A DNA stretch of 28,428 bases from a virus. Location of the stretch: positions 1 through 28,428 of the IMG/VR virus record IMGVR_UViG_3300021957_006857. One strand, 5' to 3'. Positions 6,348-28,428 of this stretch are shown piece by piece (the first letter of the stretch is position 1; the number at the start of each line of letters is the position of its first letter). The position numbers and the translations under genes were made by a program. Below the pieces are notes generated by a model. That model was not told where the DNA came from. It saw only the letters and a program-made list of their open reading frames with translations, and ran no database searches.

Positions 6348-6737
6348 TTACCCAATAGGTATTGATGTGGGCTTACTAGAGGGCGAATACGATAGGTCTA
6401 TAGTTAACATTCCGTTTTCCATGGAAGCAGAAGAGACCTCTAAGGTATTGTCAAGCTTTAGATGCTTCTCGAAACTTTTTCCTGATATACCTTTGTGCAC
6501 CCAGCCTCTACCTTCGTTATTCTCTTTTTTCTCACCTTTAATGGTAAGAACATTTTTGTGAACGTTCACTGAAATTTGGTTTTTGTTCCATCCTGGAACG
6601 GCTACTTCAACTACGTAGCCATGTTCTACTTTTTCAATGTTATAACGAGGGTATTCTGGTGCCTGTTGAGTATATAACGGGCTGTTAATTAAATTGTCGA
6701 AACCGACAAAGAATTTTTCTAGATTTACTGCATTCAT
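6348..6737 (-). CDS. Hsp20/alpha-crystallin small heat-shock protein
   Basis: 129 residues, close to the size of IbpA/IbpB and phage Hsp20 proteins. The alpha-crystallin domain runs from about residue 30 to 120: YNIEKVEHGYVVEVAVPGW, a VLTIKGEK strand, and the closing MENGMLTIDL block that corresponds to the conserved A-x-x-x-n-GvL signature. Such chaperones hold unfolded proteins; phage copies are common in marine myoviruses and may aid virion folding or host proteostasis. Divergent from thyX; promoter at 6850-6878, leader about 105 bases. Confidence 0.85.
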   Translation of the reverse strand: MNAVNLEKFFVGFDNLINSPLYTQQAPEYPRYNIEKVEHGYVVEVAVPGWNKNQISVNVHKNVLTIKGEKKENNEGRGWVHKGISGKSFEKHLKLDNTLEVSSASMENGMLTIDLSYSPSSKPTSIPIG

Positions 6738-11283: not shown

Positions 11284-11661
11284 GTGTCGTATAGCGAACA
11301 GGTTATGGATCACTACGAAAACCCTCGGAATGTGGGAAAACTCGACAAAGATTCCCAGACTGTTGGCACGGGCTTAGTGGGTGCGCCTTCGTGCGGTGAC
11401 GTAATGGTTCTACAGATAGACGTAAAAGATAATATTATCTTAGACGCTAAATTTAAAACTTATGGGTGTGGAAGCGCTATTGCTTCCAGCTCACTGTTAA
11501 GTGAGTGGGTAAAGGGTAAGAGTTTAGAAGAAGCTGGTATGATAAAAAATACTGACTTAGCTAATGAACTTGCACTCCCACCTGTTAAAATTCATTGTAG
11601 TGTACTAGCAGAAGATGCTATAAAAGCTGCGATAAAGGATTACAAAGAGAAGCAAGTATGA
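11284..11661 (+). CDS. iscU: Iron-sulfur cluster scaffold protein IscU
   Basis: 125 residues, full length for IscU. All ligands and partner sites are kept: C37 and D39 in GAPSCGDVM, C62 in FKTYGCGSAIASSS, H104/C105 in IHC, and the LPPVK site bound by the chaperone HscA. The sequence is very close to gammaproteobacterial IscU as I remember it (MAYSEKVIDHYENPRN.. in E. coli). It starts with GTG directly after the upstream stop. Host IscU assembles [2Fe-2S] clusters with IscS. No iscS, iscA or hscA lies nearby, so the phage copy would have to use host partners. It is packed between phage genes, so it is not a stray host fragment. Confidence 0.95.
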   Translation: MSYSEQVMDHYENPRNVGKLDKDSQTVGTGLVGAPSCGDVMVLQIDVKDNIILDAKFKTYGCGSAIASSSLLSEWVKGKSLEEAGMIKNTDLANELALPPVKIHCSVLAEDAIKAAIKDYKEKQV

Positions 11662-12654: not shown

Positions 12655-12876
12655 ATGTATATTTGTATTTGTAACAATATATCCAGTAAAGACTTAGAAA
12701 GAGACCCATTTCTTATTGATAAGGTGGGCTCAAAATGTGGTAAATGTATTGCGCCAATAATTGCGCAGAGCTTTATAAATGGAGTTTATACATGCCAGCA
12801 GGAAAAGGTACTTACGGTAAAAAAAGAGGTCGTCCCGCCAAAAAAGGTAAGCAAAAGCTACCAATGTCTTTCATGA
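12655..12876 (+). CDS. bfd: Bfd-like [2Fe-2S] ferredoxin
   Basis: 73 residues, close to the 64 of E. coli Bfd. It starts MYICICNNIS, with the CxC pair C4/C6, and has GSKCGKC with C28/C31, the four cluster ligands of bacterioferritin-associated ferredoxin. Bfd binds bacterioferritin and passes electrons to release stored iron. The C-terminal 28 residues overlap the next gene in another frame and look unlike Bfd (lysine-rich), so the tail may be constrained by the overlapping gene. AGAGG precedes the ATG. It stands 1 kb from iscU. Confidence 0.8.
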   Translation: MYICICNNISSKDLERDPFLIDKVGSKCGKCIAPIIAQSFINGVYTCQQEKVLTVKKEVVPPKKVSKSYQCLS

Positions 12877-22186: not shown

Positions 22187-22419
22187 TATCGATTACCTTC
22201 TTCCCAACCATCTGAAAGGTCAGTGTTATAACAATCATAGTACCAGTTACCGTACATTTCTAATAGGTCAGCATCACTATAATCACCATCTTCTTCAATC
22301 ATGTCATCTGCAATCATTTCATCCCTTAAGCCAGCGATGTGTTTGTTGAAAGCTACGTTTGAAGGCGTCATAAACACTACTTCCATTTGCTCTGGGTCTA
22401 AAATAATGTGAATAATCAT
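22186..22419 (-). CDS. Small acidic protein, unknown
   Basis: 77 residues, starts MIIHIILDPEQMEVVFMT and turns strongly acidic (DDMIEEDGDYSDADLLEM). First gene of the 22.4-19.0 kb minus-strand run; promoter at 22449-22477. Confidence 0.55.
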   Translation of the reverse strand: MIIHIILDPEQMEVVFMTPSNVAFNKHIAGLRDEMIADDMIEEDGDYSDADLLEMYGNWYYDCYNTDLSDGWEEGNR

Positions 22420-22448
22420 TTGGTCTTTTCCTTTTTTTGTATGGACAT

Positions 22449-22477
22449 ATTATACGGGGTAGAGTTAAATATGTCAA
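22449..22477 (-). promoter_or_regulatory. sigma70 promoter
   Basis: TTGACA (22472-22477) and TATAAT (22449-22454), 17-base spacer, minus strand. Confidence 0.85.
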
Positions 22478-22587
22478 ACTATTTTTTGCCCGGACTACAG
22501 TAAATTTACACAAATTTTATCCGGGGCGGGCGGCCAAGCTGCAAAAATCAAGTAAAATTTTCCTCTAATTCACGAAAATTTGTCACA

Positions 22588-22610
22588 AAAAAGCCCCTAA
22601 GCGGGGCTTT
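22588..22610 (-). terminator. Intrinsic terminator
   Basis: AAGCCCC (22591-22597) and GGGGCTT (22603-22609) form a 7-bp stem with a T-run on the minus-strand side. It closes the 22628-22936 gene. Confidence 0.85.
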
Positions 22611-22627
22611 TCGGCTTAAAACTCGGA

Positions 22628-22936
22628 TTAGCTCGGGAGAGCTGCGAGCAGCGCTCGGAGTGAGCCAGCATCGGCTTTGTCCAACCCCGCCAGGGCTTCT
22701 GGGTCTGCGCCTGAAGCGTCTGCGATGAGTCGCACAATGTCCGCCTTGGTAATGCGAGGCCCGGACGCTGATTTTACAACTTCTTTGGGCGTGTAGGCTA
22801 AGCCAAGGTTTTTAACTTTTGAAATCACACTGCGTACAGAGAGGCCGTGCAGGTCGGCAAAAGCCGTAGCGGTCTCATAAGTAAAAGAGCCAGTGGAAGT
22901 CATGTCGAATACCATCTTGTCGGTGTAAGCTGTCAT
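22628..22936 (-). CDS. HTH-like small regulator (paralogue family)
   Basis: 102 residues from the ATG at 22936 behind GAGGA. Residues 25-50 include TAFADLHGLSVRSVISKVKN, an HTH recognition segment, followed by LGLAYTPKEVV, then PRITKADIVRLIADASGADP and a leucine-rich end. It is almost the same design and in parts the same sequence as the protein at 25662-25967. It is a single-gene unit with its own promoter and terminator, which suggests a highly expressed regulator or nucleoid-type protein. GC-rich compared with earlier genes. Confidence 0.7.
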   Translation of the reverse strand: MTAYTDKMVFDMTSTGSFTYETATAFADLHGLSVRSVISKVKNLGLAYTPKEVVKSASGPRITKADIVRLIADASGADPEALAGLDKADAGSLRALLAALPS

Positions 22937-22981
22937 ATAATTTTCCTCAAATTGTTTGTTATTGTTTGTCTTGATGGGGTA

Positions 22982-23010
22982 ATTATACGGGCCCGTGGCT
23001 GGGATGTCAA
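22982..23010 (-). promoter_or_regulatory. sigma70 promoter
   Basis: TTGACA (23005-23010) and TATAAT (22982-22987), 17-base spacer, minus strand. Divergent from the tandem plus-strand promoters at 23068 and 23192. Confidence 0.85.
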
Positions 23011-23067
23011 CAACTTTCTTGGTGGAAGACCAAAGAAAGTTTTTCACATGGAGGAGGTAAAAAAGAC

Positions 23068-23096
23068 TTGACATGCCATCACTTTGGCACTATAAT
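23068..23096 (+). promoter_or_regulatory. sigma70 promoter, repeat unit A
   Basis: TTGACA (23068-23073) and TATAAT (23091-23096), 17-base spacer containing ATCACTTTGGCAC. No gene follows in the usual distance. Confidence 0.8.
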
Positions 23097-23341
23097 CGGC
23101 GCAGCCTACGCTATCGCTTTATCACTTTGACACTTTGGCGCTGTCGGAGACTACCGCATTGATTTATTTATGCGATAACCCTAAAAAACTCTTGACATGC
23201 TATCGCTTTGGCACTATAATGGGCGCGCCCGCGCCAAAAAACTGATAGGAGACTAAGCTGTTGATAACACACACATTTTTTCGTGCTGACGACCCATAGG
23301 TTAGATACTTCACTTTCGCACTGGCGCCCCCGCGCCAAAAA
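23072..23341 (+). repeat. Iteron-like degenerate repeats
   Basis: Units built on ATGCYATCRCTTTGGCAC occur at about 23072-23090 and 23196-23214; partial units (CTATCGCTTTATCAC, CACTTTGACAC, CACTTTGGCGC) lie at 23111-23142. The block CGCTTTGGCACTATAAT plus GC-rich tail and CGCGCCAAAAA at 23204-23241 recurs at about 23311-23341 with the -10 box missing. GGGCGCGCCC at 23221-23230 is a perfect palindrome. Confidence 0.65.
23192..23220 (+). promoter_or_regulatory. sigma70 promoter, repeat unit B
   Basis: TTGACA (23192-23197) and TATAAT (23215-23220), 17-base spacer nearly identical to unit A. AGGAG follows at about 23248 but only a 12-codon TTG reading frame is open. Confidence 0.8.
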
Positions 23342-23377
23342 TCCCTGTAAAAACAAGGACTTAGAGCGTTTTTGTAA

Positions 23378-23393
23378 TGTTTCACGTGAAACC
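23378..23393. other. parS centromere site 1
   Basis: TGTTTCACGTGAAACC matches the bacterial ParB-binding consensus TGTTTCACGTGAAACA at 15 of 16 positions. Confidence 0.85.
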
Positions 23394-23425
23394 ATTAACG
23401 CGTCAGAATTTTGACGGTCGCCGAA

Positions 23426-23441
23426 TGTTTCACGTGAAACA
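23426..23441. other. parS centromere site 2
   Basis: TGTTTCACGTGAAACA is a perfect 16-base parS palindrome, starting 48 bases after site 1. No parA or parB gene is in the window. Confidence 0.9.
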
Positions 23442-23463
23442 TGGGGCCAAATGCGAATGATTC

Positions 23464-23637
23464 TCATCCGTATTGAATGAAGGCGGCCAGCGATATAAGG
23501 CATAATGCGCAGAATGATATTACGATAAAAGTGTAGACATAAAATACCATATAGAACCCCGAACCCCTAAGCTTGTCCCGAACGATTTTCATTTCTCTAT
23601 CAGTTGCAAGCCTTCTAACGTCAATCGTATTTTTCAT
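23464..23637 (-). CDS. Small membrane protein
   Basis: 57 residues. A charged N-terminal half (RRLATDREMKIVRDKLRG) and a transmembrane helix at about 29-53 (MVFYVYTFIVISFCALCLIS). ATG at 23637 overlaps the PPK2 stop (TAATG). Last gene of the operon, ending just beside parS site 2. Confidence 0.55.
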   Translation of the reverse strand: MKNTIDVRRLATDREMKIVRDKLRGSGFYMVFYVYTFIVISFCALCLISLAAFIQYG

Positions 23638-24251
23638 TATTTTTCTCCTAATGCGAATATTAATTCTCGTAAAAAATTCTCAATACCAGTTTTTTTATTA
23701 TTGTAATCTACATGGATCCATTCGTCATCGATGCAACCATTTTTAAGCGTGGTCATCTCGTCATAGTAGGAAAGTGCGCGTTCATCATTAGGCGAAAATT
23801 TCCAGTATGTCAATGGCGACTTTTTGCGCTTTTCTATTCGCCGGTGCTGTTCAGCTTCAGTAATCGAAAGCCACATTTTTATCATGGTGACATTCTGGTC
23901 ACGTTCCCAGATTTTGTGCGATTTGATAAAATTGTCGTATTGCTTAGGTGAGCACCAGCCATTCAAGCGCTGAACCATTGCGCGAGAATACCAAGAACGG
24001 TCATAAAAAACAATCTGATTCCCGCGTGGCATTTTATGCGACCAATAAGAAAGCCAATTTTTCATGGTGCGCTTGCTAGGCTTTTTGCTCAAATGAACAG
24101 AAAAGCGATTCATAGGCAGATAATGCGTAGCCTCGCGAATCGTGCTGGATTTTCCGGCAGTGTCGCGCCCTTCTAACAGGACCGCGACCGGTCCTGTTAG
24201 CCCTTCGACAATCTCGTTTAACTCAGCTTGTAAAGTCTCAATCTGATTCAT
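23637..24251 (-). CDS. ppk2: Polyphosphate kinase 2 (PPK2)-like
   Basis: 204 residues from the ATG at 24251. The Walker A region EGRDTAGKSSTIRE (27-40), the lid/Walker B element FYDRSWYSRAMVQRLNGWC (82-100) and RRIEKRKKSPLTYWKFSP are typical of PPK2. PPK2 transfers phosphate between polyphosphate and nucleotides, mostly phosphorylating GDP/ADP or NMPs. It is slightly shorter than bacterial PPK2 (about 230-300). It sits with a DnaQ-like exonuclease and a HAD protein, so a role in nucleotide supply during infection is likely. GGAG precedes the start at a longer spacing. Confidence 0.85.
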   Translation of the reverse strand: MNQIETLQAELNEIVEGLTGPVAVLLEGRDTAGKSSTIREATHYLPMNRFSVHLSKKPSKRTMKNWLSYWSHKMPRGNQIVFYDRSWYSRAMVQRLNGWCSPKQYDNFIKSHKIWERDQNVTMIKMWLSITEAEQHRRIEKRKKSPLTYWKFSPNDERALSYYDEMTTLKNGCIDDEWIHVDYNNKKTGIENFLRELIFALGEK

Positions 24252-24256
24252 TATTG

Positions 24257-24364
24257 TTAAGCTCCAATGATTAAGTAGATAATGCCACATATTAACAGAA
24301 AGTCGGCGGTAATGGAATAGGCAATATAAAGTTTAAAAGCAAGTGCTAAAATTTTCGTTCTCAT
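24257..24364 (-). CDS. Small membrane protein
   Basis: 35 residues, nearly all hydrophobic after MRTK (ILALAFKLYIAYSITA, then DFLLICGIIYLIIGA). ATGA overlap with the exonuclease stop; the PPK2 ATG follows six bases after its TAA. Confidence 0.5.
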   Translation of the reverse strand: MRTKILALAFKLYIAYSITADFLLICGIIYLIIGA

Positions 24365-25011
24365 TTGCCAGCCTCCAATAATTTCGCGCGGGTCAAGTCT
24401 CGCAGCAGTCGTTGCAGAATCGGGTTTTCATAATCCCGCGCATCTTCAAGCGCAGTGTGCGGCTCGTCTTGCAATTCAAGCCCTAGAATGAATTTCGCCA
24501 TCGTGTCGGCGGTCATGCTAGGCTGTCGCAATGCAGGAGTCAAAAAGCGATTATCATGGCAAAAATCGTGATAGGCCGCCAATGTGCCAATGTGCTTTTT
24601 TGCCGCTTTCATAAGACAAAAACGCTGGGAAAAAATCCCGAGATTGATGCCGGTATTCGAGCATTTGCCAAAATCAAAAGCGATATTATAAGCCGTCAAA
24701 ACTGGGGCATATCGGGCGTTGATGCCAGCAAGCCATAAATTAATCAGAGCCGGTGAGGATATTGAGCGAAGGCCAGATTCTAGCATTGCATCGTAAGCCT
24801 TAGCGCGGCGCTTGGCAGATTGTTCTGACCAAAAAGCCGAATCAGAGGCGGAAGGGTCGAAGAATAGAGGCTTTTTGCCGAATTCGCCCAAAACCATTGC
24901 GCCGAATTGCTCGACAATTTCGCCCTTGCGAGTGACCAAAACAGCGCCAAAATCAGCGACCGTATTTCGGCGGGTCGTTTCCGTGTCAACAATAAGATAA
25001 AAGTGTTTCAT
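24361..25011 (-). CDS. DnaQ-like 3'-5' exonuclease (DEDDh)
   Basis: 216 residues. ExoI motif VDTET (D9, E11), ExoII AYNIAFD (D113) and ExoIII HTALEDARD (H185, D190) give a complete DEDDh active site. It should degrade DNA or RNA ends with two metal ions. Possible roles are proofreading, host DNA turnover or small-oligo clearance; no polymerase gene is near. The codon choice is richer in G and C than in the left half of the window. Confidence 0.85.
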   Translation of the reverse strand: MKHFYLIVDTETTRRNTVADFGAVLVTRKGEIVEQFGAMVLGEFGKKPLFFDPSASDSAFWSEQSAKRRAKAYDAMLESGLRSISSPALINLWLAGINARYAPVLTAYNIAFDFGKCSNTGINLGIFSQRFCLMKAAKKHIGTLAAYHDFCHDNRFLTPALRQPSMTADTMAKFILGLELQDEPHTALEDARDYENPILQRLLRDLTRAKLLEAGK

Positions 25012-25013
25012 AA

Positions 25014-25478
25014 TTAAGCGGCCTTTTTATTGCGTGAGTTGTAGTTTACCGGACAAAAGCATCTGAGTCCATTCCTGTTTAGGATTTCTTTAACGTCCGA
25101 ATTATCATCGAACATAATGGCAGTTCGGCAGAATTGCGACCAAGATATATTTTGGCGTTTTGCCATGCCTTGCAACAATCTCAATTTTAGAGATCCTGGG
25201 TTTTCATTGCCATCAAGCAAAGTGCGAGCCAGTAGGTTATCGAAGCGCAAACCGAGCAATCGGAAGCTCTCGAAATCGTGAGCAGATAATACCCTGCTAG
25301 TGCAAACCGTCACAACGTCGCCGTTGTGATAAGCGGCTTTCATCTGGTCGGCCAGAGGTAAAAGCGTATCCTTAAGGATATTTTCCCTAGTGTTTAATGC
25401 TATCCATTCGTCTAGCGTTTCACCTTGTCGGTGGCTTGAATCGATAACCGTTTCATCTAAATCAAATATAAAGTGCAT
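25014..25478 (-). CDS. HAD-like phosphatase
   Basis: 154 residues. HAD motif I FDLDET (5-10; nucleophile D6, acid D8), motif II region VVTVCTSR, a conserved-looking Lys near residue 98 and MFDDNSD as motif IV. Probably a nucleotide or small-metabolite phosphatase, or polynucleotide 3'-phosphatase as in phage end-repair enzymes. Substrate open. Confidence 0.8.
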   Translation of the reverse strand: MHFIFDLDETVIDSSHRQGETLDEWIALNTRENILKDTLLPLADQMKAAYHNGDVVTVCTSRVLSAHDFESFRLLGLRFDNLLARTLLDGNENPGSLKLRLLQGMAKRQNISWSQFCRTAIMFDDNSDVKEILNRNGLRCFCPVNYNSRNKKAA

Positions 25479-25665
25479 AAGAAAATCCTAATATTGAAAT
25501 GAGGTTTAAGCATACCAGATTTATTGTCCGGTTGCAAATGGCCTGTATCGTTAAGAGTCCAAGCCCTACAATTGCCAGCGCCTTACCCGCTGGGCTGTCT
25601 ATGATGAATGGGGCGCAGCTCATACAAGCCGCGCCAATCCAACCGCTGAAGGCCGCAACCTTCAC
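25462..25665 (-). CDS. Small two-helix membrane protein
   Basis: 67 residues from a GTG at 25665 that overlaps the upstream stop (GTGA). Two hydrophobic segments: AAFSGWIGAACMSCAPFII and LVCLNLISILGFSYALYI, with AIVGLGLLTIQAICNRTINL between. This NR-x-x-NL-x-x-LN-x-x-S type occurs in several phages without assigned role. Confidence 0.6.
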   Translation of the reverse strand: MKVAAFSGWIGAACMSCAPFIIDSPAGKALAIVGLGLLTIQAICNRTINLVCLNLISILGFSYALYI

Positions 25666-25967
25666 GCGATATGCTCAAGCAAAGTGCGAAGCGCCTTAGC
25701 GTCAGCTTTATCAAGGCCGCGAATTGACTCAACATCTAGCGCCATAGCGCGGGCGATAGCGTCAACCAAATCAGCTTTGGTGATACGCGGGCCAGCAGTT
25801 GAAACGACTTTAGCCTTGGGCGTGTAGGAAATACCAAGGTGCTTGACCTTGGATATAACCGAGCGAACGCTGAGGCCGTGAGCCGAAGCGAAAGCAGAGG
25901 CAGAATCATAATCGAAAGAATCTTGCGATTGCATTTCTGCGAGAATAACCGGAGTATAATTTGACAT
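25662..25967 (-). CDS. HTH-like small regulator (paralogue family)
   Basis: 101 residues from the ATG at 25967 behind AAGGAAA. SAFASAHGLSVRSVISKVKH is almost identical to the HTH segment of the 22628-22936 protein; PRITKADLVDAIARAMAL and LRTLLEHIA form the shared C-terminal module. First gene of the HAD-exonuclease-PPK2 operon, so it may regulate it. Confidence 0.7.
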   Translation of the reverse strand: MSNYTPVILAEMQSQDSFDYDSASAFASAHGLSVRSVISKVKHLGISYTPKAKVVSTAGPRITKADLVDAIARAMALDVESIRGLDKADAKALRTLLEHIA

Positions 25968-26010
25968 ATTTTTAGTTTCCTTTAGTGTAATGCTTGATTG
26001 CATGGGTAGG

Positions 26011-26038
26011 ATTTTACAGGTTTTTCTGTAAATGTCCA
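26011..26038 (-). promoter_or_regulatory. Probable promoter, weaker type
   Basis: TGGACA (26033-26038) and TAAAAT (26011-26016) with a 16-base spacer, minus strand. GGATTTTACAG over the -10 box is shared with the promoter at 26414-26442. Confidence 0.55.
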
Positions 26039-26075
26039 GTCTTTTTATATACCGAAATAGCATAACGATATGCGC

Positions 26076-26493: not shown

Positions 26494-26827
26494 ATAACAA
26501 AAAGTTCTAGCATCTCTTAAGCATAGACCGTGCCAACTTTTTGCAACATCATTATGAATGATGGTAGGCGGGGGCGGTTATAAGACCCAGTGATAATGGT
26601 CACGCGCAAACCCCCTTTCACGTACAACTTTAAGAATTTTATAAGCAAAAAAGGTGCTATAACAAGCTGTACCTACAAAGCGGCTCAACACGACCAAAAA
26701 TACTTCTTGACATTTTTAATTTTTTCAATTATAATAACATTCTTGAGAAAAGATGAATTTTCCCAAATCCTCAAACATAAACCCACAAACCAAAGAAAGG
26801 CGAAAGCCTGTAATAAAAGGAGTTACT
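26494..26827. other. Gene-free region upstream of the receptor
   Basis: Holds an inverted repeat, CATCATT ATG AATGATG (26547-26563), a consensus promoter and the receptor leader. A 37-codon GTG frame on the minus strand (26578-26691) has hydrophobic character but no ribosome site, and is not called. Confidence 0.5.
26707..26735 (+). promoter_or_regulatory. sigma70 promoter for the TonB-dependent receptor
   Basis: TTGACA (26707-26712) and TATAAT (26730-26735), 17-base spacer. The leader is about 87 bases and holds an AGGC GAAA GCCT hairpin (26798-26809) before AAAAGGAG. Confidence 0.85.
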
Positions 26828-28428
26828 ATGTTAAGAAAGGCAATCCCGCTATTGCTACTAAGTTGTTCATCGTTCGCCGAGATGGAAGAAGTCGTCGTCA
26901 AAGGAGATCTCGGATCACTTCCCGGCGAACGCGTAGAATCCGTCTTCGGCTTTGAGAAATCTATTCTAGACACACCCCGAAGCGCTTCAACAATCTCCGA
27001 AGAAATGATGGACCGTTTCAATATGCAGGATATCGACGAACTCGTTGTTCTAGCACCTGGAACCTTCACACAATCGTTCTTCGGTGTAGCAGGCTCACTC
27101 GACGTACGTGGTACTGCCGGTGAGACATACTTTCGAGGTATTCGACGCCTTGATAACCCAGGCAACTATCCAACCCCGATTGGAGCCTCCGACCGAGTAG
27201 ATATCGTTCGCGGCCCCGCATCCCCTATTATGGGCCCTAGTAAGATCGGTGGTTACCTCAACTTCAATCCCAAGTCCGCTCGCATCGAAGAGACAGGTTC
27301 TTATATTCCAGAGCGTATCGGAGAGATTTCCTACTCTGGTGGAAGCTGGGATCGTAATGTCCTTACTGCCGAAGTTGGTGGCCCTGCAGCAATCAGTGGA
27401 AAGCCTGTTGGCTACTATCTCTATGGAGAAGTTGAACATTCTGGTAGCTTCTACACAAATGCCCCCGGTGTGAATCAATCACTCGTTCAAGCATCGTTTG
27501 ATATGGACTTTAGCGACAATGTACGAATTCAGTTCGGTGGTATGCTTCACGACTATCAGGGTAGCCAAAACGCTGGCTGGAATCGTTTGACTCAAGACCT
27601 CATTGACACAGGTACTTATATCACCGGTACTCCTACTCCTCTTGATACTAGCGGCGATGGCTTCATCTCTCACGATGAGTACTATGCAGGCAATATCAAT
27701 CCTTTTGCTCTCTATGCCTTCTTTGGCCAGCAGAACCTTGATCTTGCCGGTCTGTCAGATGCTTCGTTCGGTTATGACTACTCTTCGTCCAATATGGCCC
27801 TAGAGAACGTTGGAACTGCTATTCTGCCCATGTCTTCTACACTTATTGCTGCGGATGATACCTTAGAGAATAAAGTGGCAACTCTGTACTTCGACGTTGA
27901 TGTTGCTCTTGGCGAGTGGACTTTGACGAATAAGTTATTCTACGAAAGCTATGAGAACCTGAATGAGAATGCTTATGGCTTCTCTCAGTTTCATGACGCA
28001 TCGGTAGTAGAGGATCAGTTGATTCTGTCCCGTGTCTTTGATGGCTCATCAATGACGACTTCTGTTTCGATCTCTCCTTCAATTCGACGAACTGAGTTTA
28101 CTCACGGGGATGACTATTATAACGAATACTTTAGCCGACGTGACTTGACGGGGCCTTCAACGGCTCTTGATAGAAGACTACTGGCAACTCGAAGTGGAAG
28201 CGACTATAGCGAATATTATGTTGGGGATTATACTGACCTGGGTTTCGGGGTAATGGCAGACTTTGCACATGCTTCGGGGCTATCACTTCTTCTAGGTGCA
28301 CGTTATGATGTAATCGATATGACAAGTACAACTCCTGAAGGCTTCACACAATCAGACTCAGCTTTCACATCTTCGGAAGGTGGAGTGGACGTTTCTGTAA
28401 ATACTGCTACGGCTGAGCCTAGCGGTGT
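26828..28428 (+). CDS. TonB-dependent outer-membrane receptor (partial)
   Basis: 533 codons present; the barrel continues past the window end. Signal peptide MLRKAIPLLLLSCSSFA (1-17) is followed directly by MEEVVVKGD, a TonB-box-like segment. The plug (about 30-160) shows ISEEMMDRFNMQDIDELVVL, DVRGTAGETYFRGIRRLDNP and SDRVDIVRGPASPIMGPSKI, the classical plug motifs. The barrel follows with alternating strands and loops; LDTSGDGFISHDEY has an EF-hand-like loop (D273-E284). These receptors import siderophore-iron, B12 or glycans using TonB. Genes of this kind are rare in phages. It has its own consensus promoter; no classical Fur box was recognised. Confidence 0.93.
   Translation, partial: MLRKAIPLLLLSCSSFAEMEEVVVKGDLGSLPGERVESVFGFEKSILDTPRSASTISEEMMDRFNMQDIDELVVLAPGTFTQSFFGVAGSLDVRGTAGETYFRGIRRLDNPGNYPTPIGASDRVDIVRGPASPIMGPSKIGGYLNFNPKSARIEETGSYIPERIGEISYSGGSWDRNVLTAEVGGPAAISGKPVGYYLYGEVEHSGSFYTNAPGVNQSLVQASFDMDFSDNVRIQFGGMLHDYQGSQNAGWNRLTQDLIDTGTYITGTPTPLDTSGDGFISHDEYYAGNINPFALYAFFGQQNLDLAGLSDASFGYDYSSSNMALENVGTAILPMSSTLIAADDTLENKVATLYFDVDVALGEWTLTNKLFYESYENLNENAYGFSQFHDASVVEDQLILSRVFDGSSMTTSVSISPSIRRTEFTHGDDYYNEYFSRRDLTGPSTALDRRLLATRSGSDYSEYYVGDYTDLGFGVMADFAHASGLSLLLGARYDVIDMTSTTPEGFTQSDSAFTSSEGGVDVSVNTATAEPSG

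Follow-up and report, generated by a model that had tools for sequence, protein, structure and literature searches.

The virus-derived DNA analyzed in this study (IMG/VR record IMGVR_UViG_3300021957_006857, 28,428 nucleotides over its whole length, referred to as the window) contains two parS sites of the bacterial chromosomal type beside the early genes of a T5-like phage, and these are very probably genuine parS sites kept by selection as functional loading sites for host ParB. Taken together, conserved sites of host form at a fixed place, the failure to find ParA or ParB, and cultured relatives without parS suggest that the clade, a family of marine T5-like phages, acquired and keeps a loading site for the ParB of its host.

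parS sites and gene content of the window

A perfect parS palindrome, TGTTTCACGTGAAACA (16/16), was located at 23426-23441 and a second copy, TGTTTCACGTGAAACC (15/16, with C as its final base), at 23378-23393. The two starts are 48 bases apart, leaving a gap of 32 between the copies, which confirms the arrangement described in an earlier sequence-only reading of this DNA. No further copy within 3 mismatches was found in the 28,428-base record, and shuffled sequences yielded 0.13 matches under the same limit. Both copies lie between a small ORF (23464-23637), which follows a gene for polyphosphate kinase 2 (PPK2) and stops 22 bp before the pair, and the next gene, at 22628-22939. A 111-aa ORF (23168-23503) crosses both sites and reads VSRET there; this ORF is, at parS, only the translated palindrome. 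The features of the region are as follows:

22628..22939, minus strand: A2-like small DNA-binding-type protein, 60% identical to the paralogue at 25662 (T5 A2 a weak match, E 0.01-0.02)
22982..23010, minus strand: sigma-70-type promoter, perfect 12/12, directed away from parS into the A2-like gene
23068..23096, plus strand: sigma-70-type promoter, perfect 12/12, directed toward parS
23192..23220, plus strand: sigma-70-type promoter, perfect 12/12, directed toward parS
23378..23393, no strand: parS site 2, 15/16 (paired copies also in L123, with 2, and L129, with 2)
23426..23441, no strand: parS site 1, perfect
23464..23637, minus strand: 57-aa ORF between PPK2 and the parS sites (a variant is present in L124)
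23637..24251, minus strand: PPK2, the gene adjoining parS (Pfam PF03976, 2.6e-36)
24361..25011, minus strand: exonuclease-like gene (PHROG 192, 3e-4)
25014..25478, minus strand: dmp-like gene (homologue of the T5 deoxynucleoside-5'-monophosphatase)
25662..26063, minus strand: A2-like small DNA-binding-type protein (PHROG 1725 and paralogue comparison)

The A2-like paralogues begin at 22628, 25662, 19383, and 1079, the last of which matches T5 A2 at 5e-7 and the others weakly. An Rfam search of positions 22400-24300 gave no match.

The window covers part of the genome of an uncultured T5-like (Demerecviridae-like) phage. Many of its proteins are common to a 101-kb contig (G004), whose terminase shares about 50% identity with the terminases of T5-like phages, among them Pectobacterium phage My1, T5, and Vibrio phages; the G004 record carries the T5-type large terminase together with dmp, PPK2, and a parS site, and the window fragment stops short of the terminase. 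Gene order and direction are unlike those of T5, and the terminase in G004 is divergent. Among six contigs searched, dmp and A2-like genes were found and the T5 pre-early gene A1 was not; ten records of the clade yielded no integrase, and the window had no megablast match among cultured phages.

PPK2 is encoded in this T5-like phage, and numerous other large contigs of phages (L136-L186) carry it too. These distant PPK2 carriers have no site within 2 mismatches, and the idea that parS is a trait of PPK2-bearing phages was therefore rejected; parS goes with the T5-like clade and not with PPK2. Additionally, genes of NifU/IscU-like (11284-11661), ferredoxin-like (12655-12876), and Hsp20-like (6348-6737) type were recognized by eye from the translations of the same phage.

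Conservation of parS among relatives

Relatives were gathered from IMG/VR by a PPK2 search and a dmp alignment search. With up to 2 mismatches allowed, the 80 dmp loci contained 45 parS matches, whereas 60 scrambled palindromes gave 0.23 on average, which bears out the earlier judgement that a chance match is very unlikely. Of the 49 loci in which dmp is followed by 2.2 kb or more, 39 have parS at 611-1760 bp downstream of dmp, usually as one site and rarely as two; the sites are conserved in related phages, as the sequence-only reading had asked to be checked, and they keep a fixed place. After removal of near-duplicates, most of the 16 positions in the 35 remaining sites were invariant (2.0 bits) and the rest carried 0.9-1.8 bits, against a near-random mean of 0.11-0.13 bits for the 40 bases on each side. 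These comparisons indicate that parS is conserved beyond chance and under selection.

The sites of the clade correspond to the 16-bp palindrome TGTTYCACGTGRAACA or a natural variant of it, the definition of a chromosome-type parS used here. On the dmp tree, the form or presence of the site changes at least 16 times and presence or absence alone at least 8 times. The palindrome persists through the form changes, with both halves switching between chromosomal forms and the half-changed TCC/AAA a common state. Two members (L130 and L297) carry parS inside the PPK2 gene, and the in-gene site of L130 encodes VSRET, where other relatives have, for example, EKRKK. When 14 larger relatives were searched whole, 13 had a single site within 2 mismatches and the remaining one had one extra two-mismatch match, and nearly all members have one site per 25-100 kb. 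The site was absent from 10 of the 49 loci, most of which keep the promoter array described below, so that parS is not essential.

No site within 2 mismatches was found in 17 cultured T5-like phages of enteric, Vibrio, and Aeromonas hosts, T5 included. Vibrio and Aeromonas have chromosomal parABS, and a link between parS and ParB-positive hosts was not found among these cultured phages, none of which has the site.

ParA and ParB in the phage records

The ParB_N domain was not found in the 14 records around the window or in 14 further site-bearing records, nor was the ParA-type AAA_31 domain found in 13 records; the contigs searched may be incomplete, include ones of 92-101 kb, and were searched with positive controls that worked. 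Neither domain was found in the record of the window, in agreement with the earlier observation that it holds no parA or parB. A self-contained parABS system, with ParB and ParA encoded beside the site, was likewise not found in the records searched, which may be incomplete contigs.

Match to chromosomal parS and the candidate host

The clade sites occur as TTT/AAA, TCC/GGA, and TCC/AAA. The commonest form in the clade, TGTTCCACGTGGAACA (TCC/GGA), is that of parS2 and parS3 of Pseudomonas aeruginosa, which are occupied by ParB in vivo as proven by ChIP (PMC4368675, PMC5098823).

A gene for a TonB-dependent outer-membrane receptor lies at 26753-28426 on the plus strand and runs off the end of the window; a full-length version (L252, 2140-4557) encodes 805 aa with a signal-peptide-like start. 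The T5 receptor is the TonB-dependent protein FhuA, and since T5 enters through it, a receptor gene carried by a T5-like phage is odd and worth study in terms of receptor replacement, superinfection control, or nutrient uptake. Genes of uncultured marine Pseudomonadales reach 85-87% identity with the phage gene, a similarity that points, as far as one gene can, to this clade as the host. ParB was found in 8 of the 10 nearest candidate host genomes, the host assignment being based on that one gene. Exact parS was present in 5 of the 10 (G062, G064, G069, G070, and G071), in every case as the perfect form found in the window, and in G062, G064, G070, and G071 one contig carries both this chromosomal site and parB, about 13 kb apart. 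More distant relatives carry TTT/AAA, TCC/GGA, or TCC/AAA. Therefore, the phages and the candidate hosts, each pooled, share the same three parS forms. The candidate hosts have just 1-2 exact parS sites per chromosome.

Possible functions of the sites

The earlier proposal that the phage recruits host ParB is supported as regards the recruitment itself, in view of the conserved sites, their fixed place, their chromosomal forms, and the failure to find ParB; of the uses proposed with it, plasmid-like segregation is now disfavoured and the decoy weakened, and positioning or condensation of the genome is still a candidate. That reading had noted neither the promoters beside the sites nor their setting among T5-like early genes. 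ParB is known to recognize parS with CTP, to close as a clamp, and to slide along DNA. A host ParB dimer with CTP would accordingly recognize the phage palindrome and close round the phage DNA, and the clamps would slide outward over the adjoining early region. The position of parS among T5-type early genes (dmp and A2-like) suggests that it would act soon after entry. ParB would then bring the phage genome, on entry or during replication, under the ParA/SMC machinery of the host, by which it would be positioned, organized, or held. We tentatively regard such positioning or organization of phage DNA as the likeliest gain, ahead of promoter control.

Promoter control would be a transcriptional switch: having loaded at parS, host ParB would slide across the adjacent promoters or obstruct them, and so shut early promoters or stop antisense transcripts into dmp-PPK2, a use like that of KorB. 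Near-perfect promoters are indeed concentrated here: across 26 loci, 54 face parS and 28 point away, against 0.05 expected for each, and in almost every member one to four face parS from about 110-480 bp, with parS at, or close to, the border of the non-coding stretch on the side of the genes. Furthermore, parS upstream of a test promoter reduces expression in the presence of P. aeruginosa ParB, according to a review (PMC7022226). Against this, members without parS keep the array, and the two members with the site inside PPK2 do not fit readily with such a switch. To our knowledge, native chromosomal ParB is not generally thought of as a strong repressor, and we consider the switch a possible but rather unlikely role.

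The array itself is a conserved sigma-70 feature at positions 22980-23330 of the window and at the equivalent place in relatives, in which several promoters read antisense in the direction of the early genes and one or two read away. Its presence in members without parS indicates that it is independent of the site, and the idea of parS as a necessary part of it was rejected.

The sites might instead serve as a decoy, with replicating phage genomes titrating host ParB to the detriment of chromosome segregation. The few exact sites of a candidate host chromosome would be outnumbered by those on many phage genomes; however, a sponge would be expected to carry clusters of sites, whereas nearly all members have a single one, bound to one place beside early genes. 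This part of the earlier proposal has become improbable. We also doubt a role in DNA entry, in which ParB clamps on the first-entering DNA would form a ratchet or anchor with a timing comparable to the T5 first-step transfer. The site does lie among homologues of T5 pre-early genes, but gene order and direction differ from T5 and the terminase is divergent in G004; since the gene order differs, we do not claim a first-step-transfer position for parS. For a gain other than positioning or organization, promoter control, decoy, or DNA entry, we see only a slight chance.

An operator or a nicking/packaging site for a phage protein, resembling parS by convergence, might be suggested by the small DNA-binding paralogues that flank both sides; the adoption of chromosomal forms, that of P. 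aeruginosa included, and the change of both halves with the palindrome kept make it quite improbable. A centromere of a plasmid-like prophage is very unlikely in view of the T5-like gene content and of the failure to find integrase, ParA, or ParB in the records searched, even though plasmids can be stabilized by a chromosomal parS that comes with its own par operon (PMC7022226). Chance, or a piece of host chromosome joined to a phage contig, has a negligible probability, as the site is conserved between phage genes in dozens of contigs; the idea of a host flank or chimera was also rejected for the right end of the window, where the TonB receptor recurs in two more phage contigs at 97-98%.

Wider occurrence and significance

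Two parS cores 18-48 bases apart were identified in 54 IMG/VR contigs (L044 and L187-L239), which have little or no similarity to the clade in the stretches compared, except L198 (the relative G001). ParB_N was found in 3 of the 48 paired-core records searched and was not detected in the other 45, and a terminase was detectable in 14 of 45 records searched, five of these 45 having been taken from a separate search. The paired cores in unrelated contigs suggest that host-type parS may be used more widely, with some of these contigs possibly being prophage or host sequence. In two paired-parS contigs, L204 (G029) and L216 (G041), the terminase genes read through 6 TAG or 2 TGA codons, which suggests phages with a recoded stop.

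No chromosome segregation module of bacteria is more conserved than ParB-parS, and a phage lineage with the site only would be a lytic virus recruiting the centromere protein of its host. It seems reasonably likely that a lytic phage family keeps, as a fixed element of its early region, the chromosomal centromere of its host and applies the ParB-CTP clamps of that host, together with ParA/SMC, to its own DNA, and that this is a general and unreported viral strategy, as suggested by the unrelated paired-parS phages that are mostly without ParB. No report of host-type parS in ParB-less phages was found in a literature search that left out preprints and most subscription journals, so that the novelty is provisional. 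One 16-bp site and one host protein would make a ready system for the effects of ParB loading on a foreign genome, and the parS form may help to predict the hosts of uncultured phages.

Comparison with known systems

The phage sites share the 16-bp palindrome and its natural variants with the chromosomal ParABS of Pseudomonas aeruginosa, Bacillus subtilis, and others; unlike in those systems, the sites number one or two, lie among early genes and not near oriC, and are carried by a genome without detected ParA or ParB. The phage-plasmids P1, N15, and cluster A mycobacteriophages encode their own ParA and ParB with their own site. They likewise have a centromere on a phage genome, but the present clade differs in carrying a host-type site alone and in looking lytic. 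With T5, the clade has in common a dmp homologue, A2-like genes, and promoter-rich non-coding DNA, as in the T5 pre-early region with its injection stop signal, whereas T5 and 16 other cultured relatives are without parS, and only the uncultured clade showed PPK2 and the parS/promoter arrangement. CTX phage and IMEX use host XerCD/dif, and in these elements, as proposed here, a chromosome-maintenance site of the host is copied and the host protein is used in trans; they do so for site-specific integration, whereas the present phages would do so for ParB loading.
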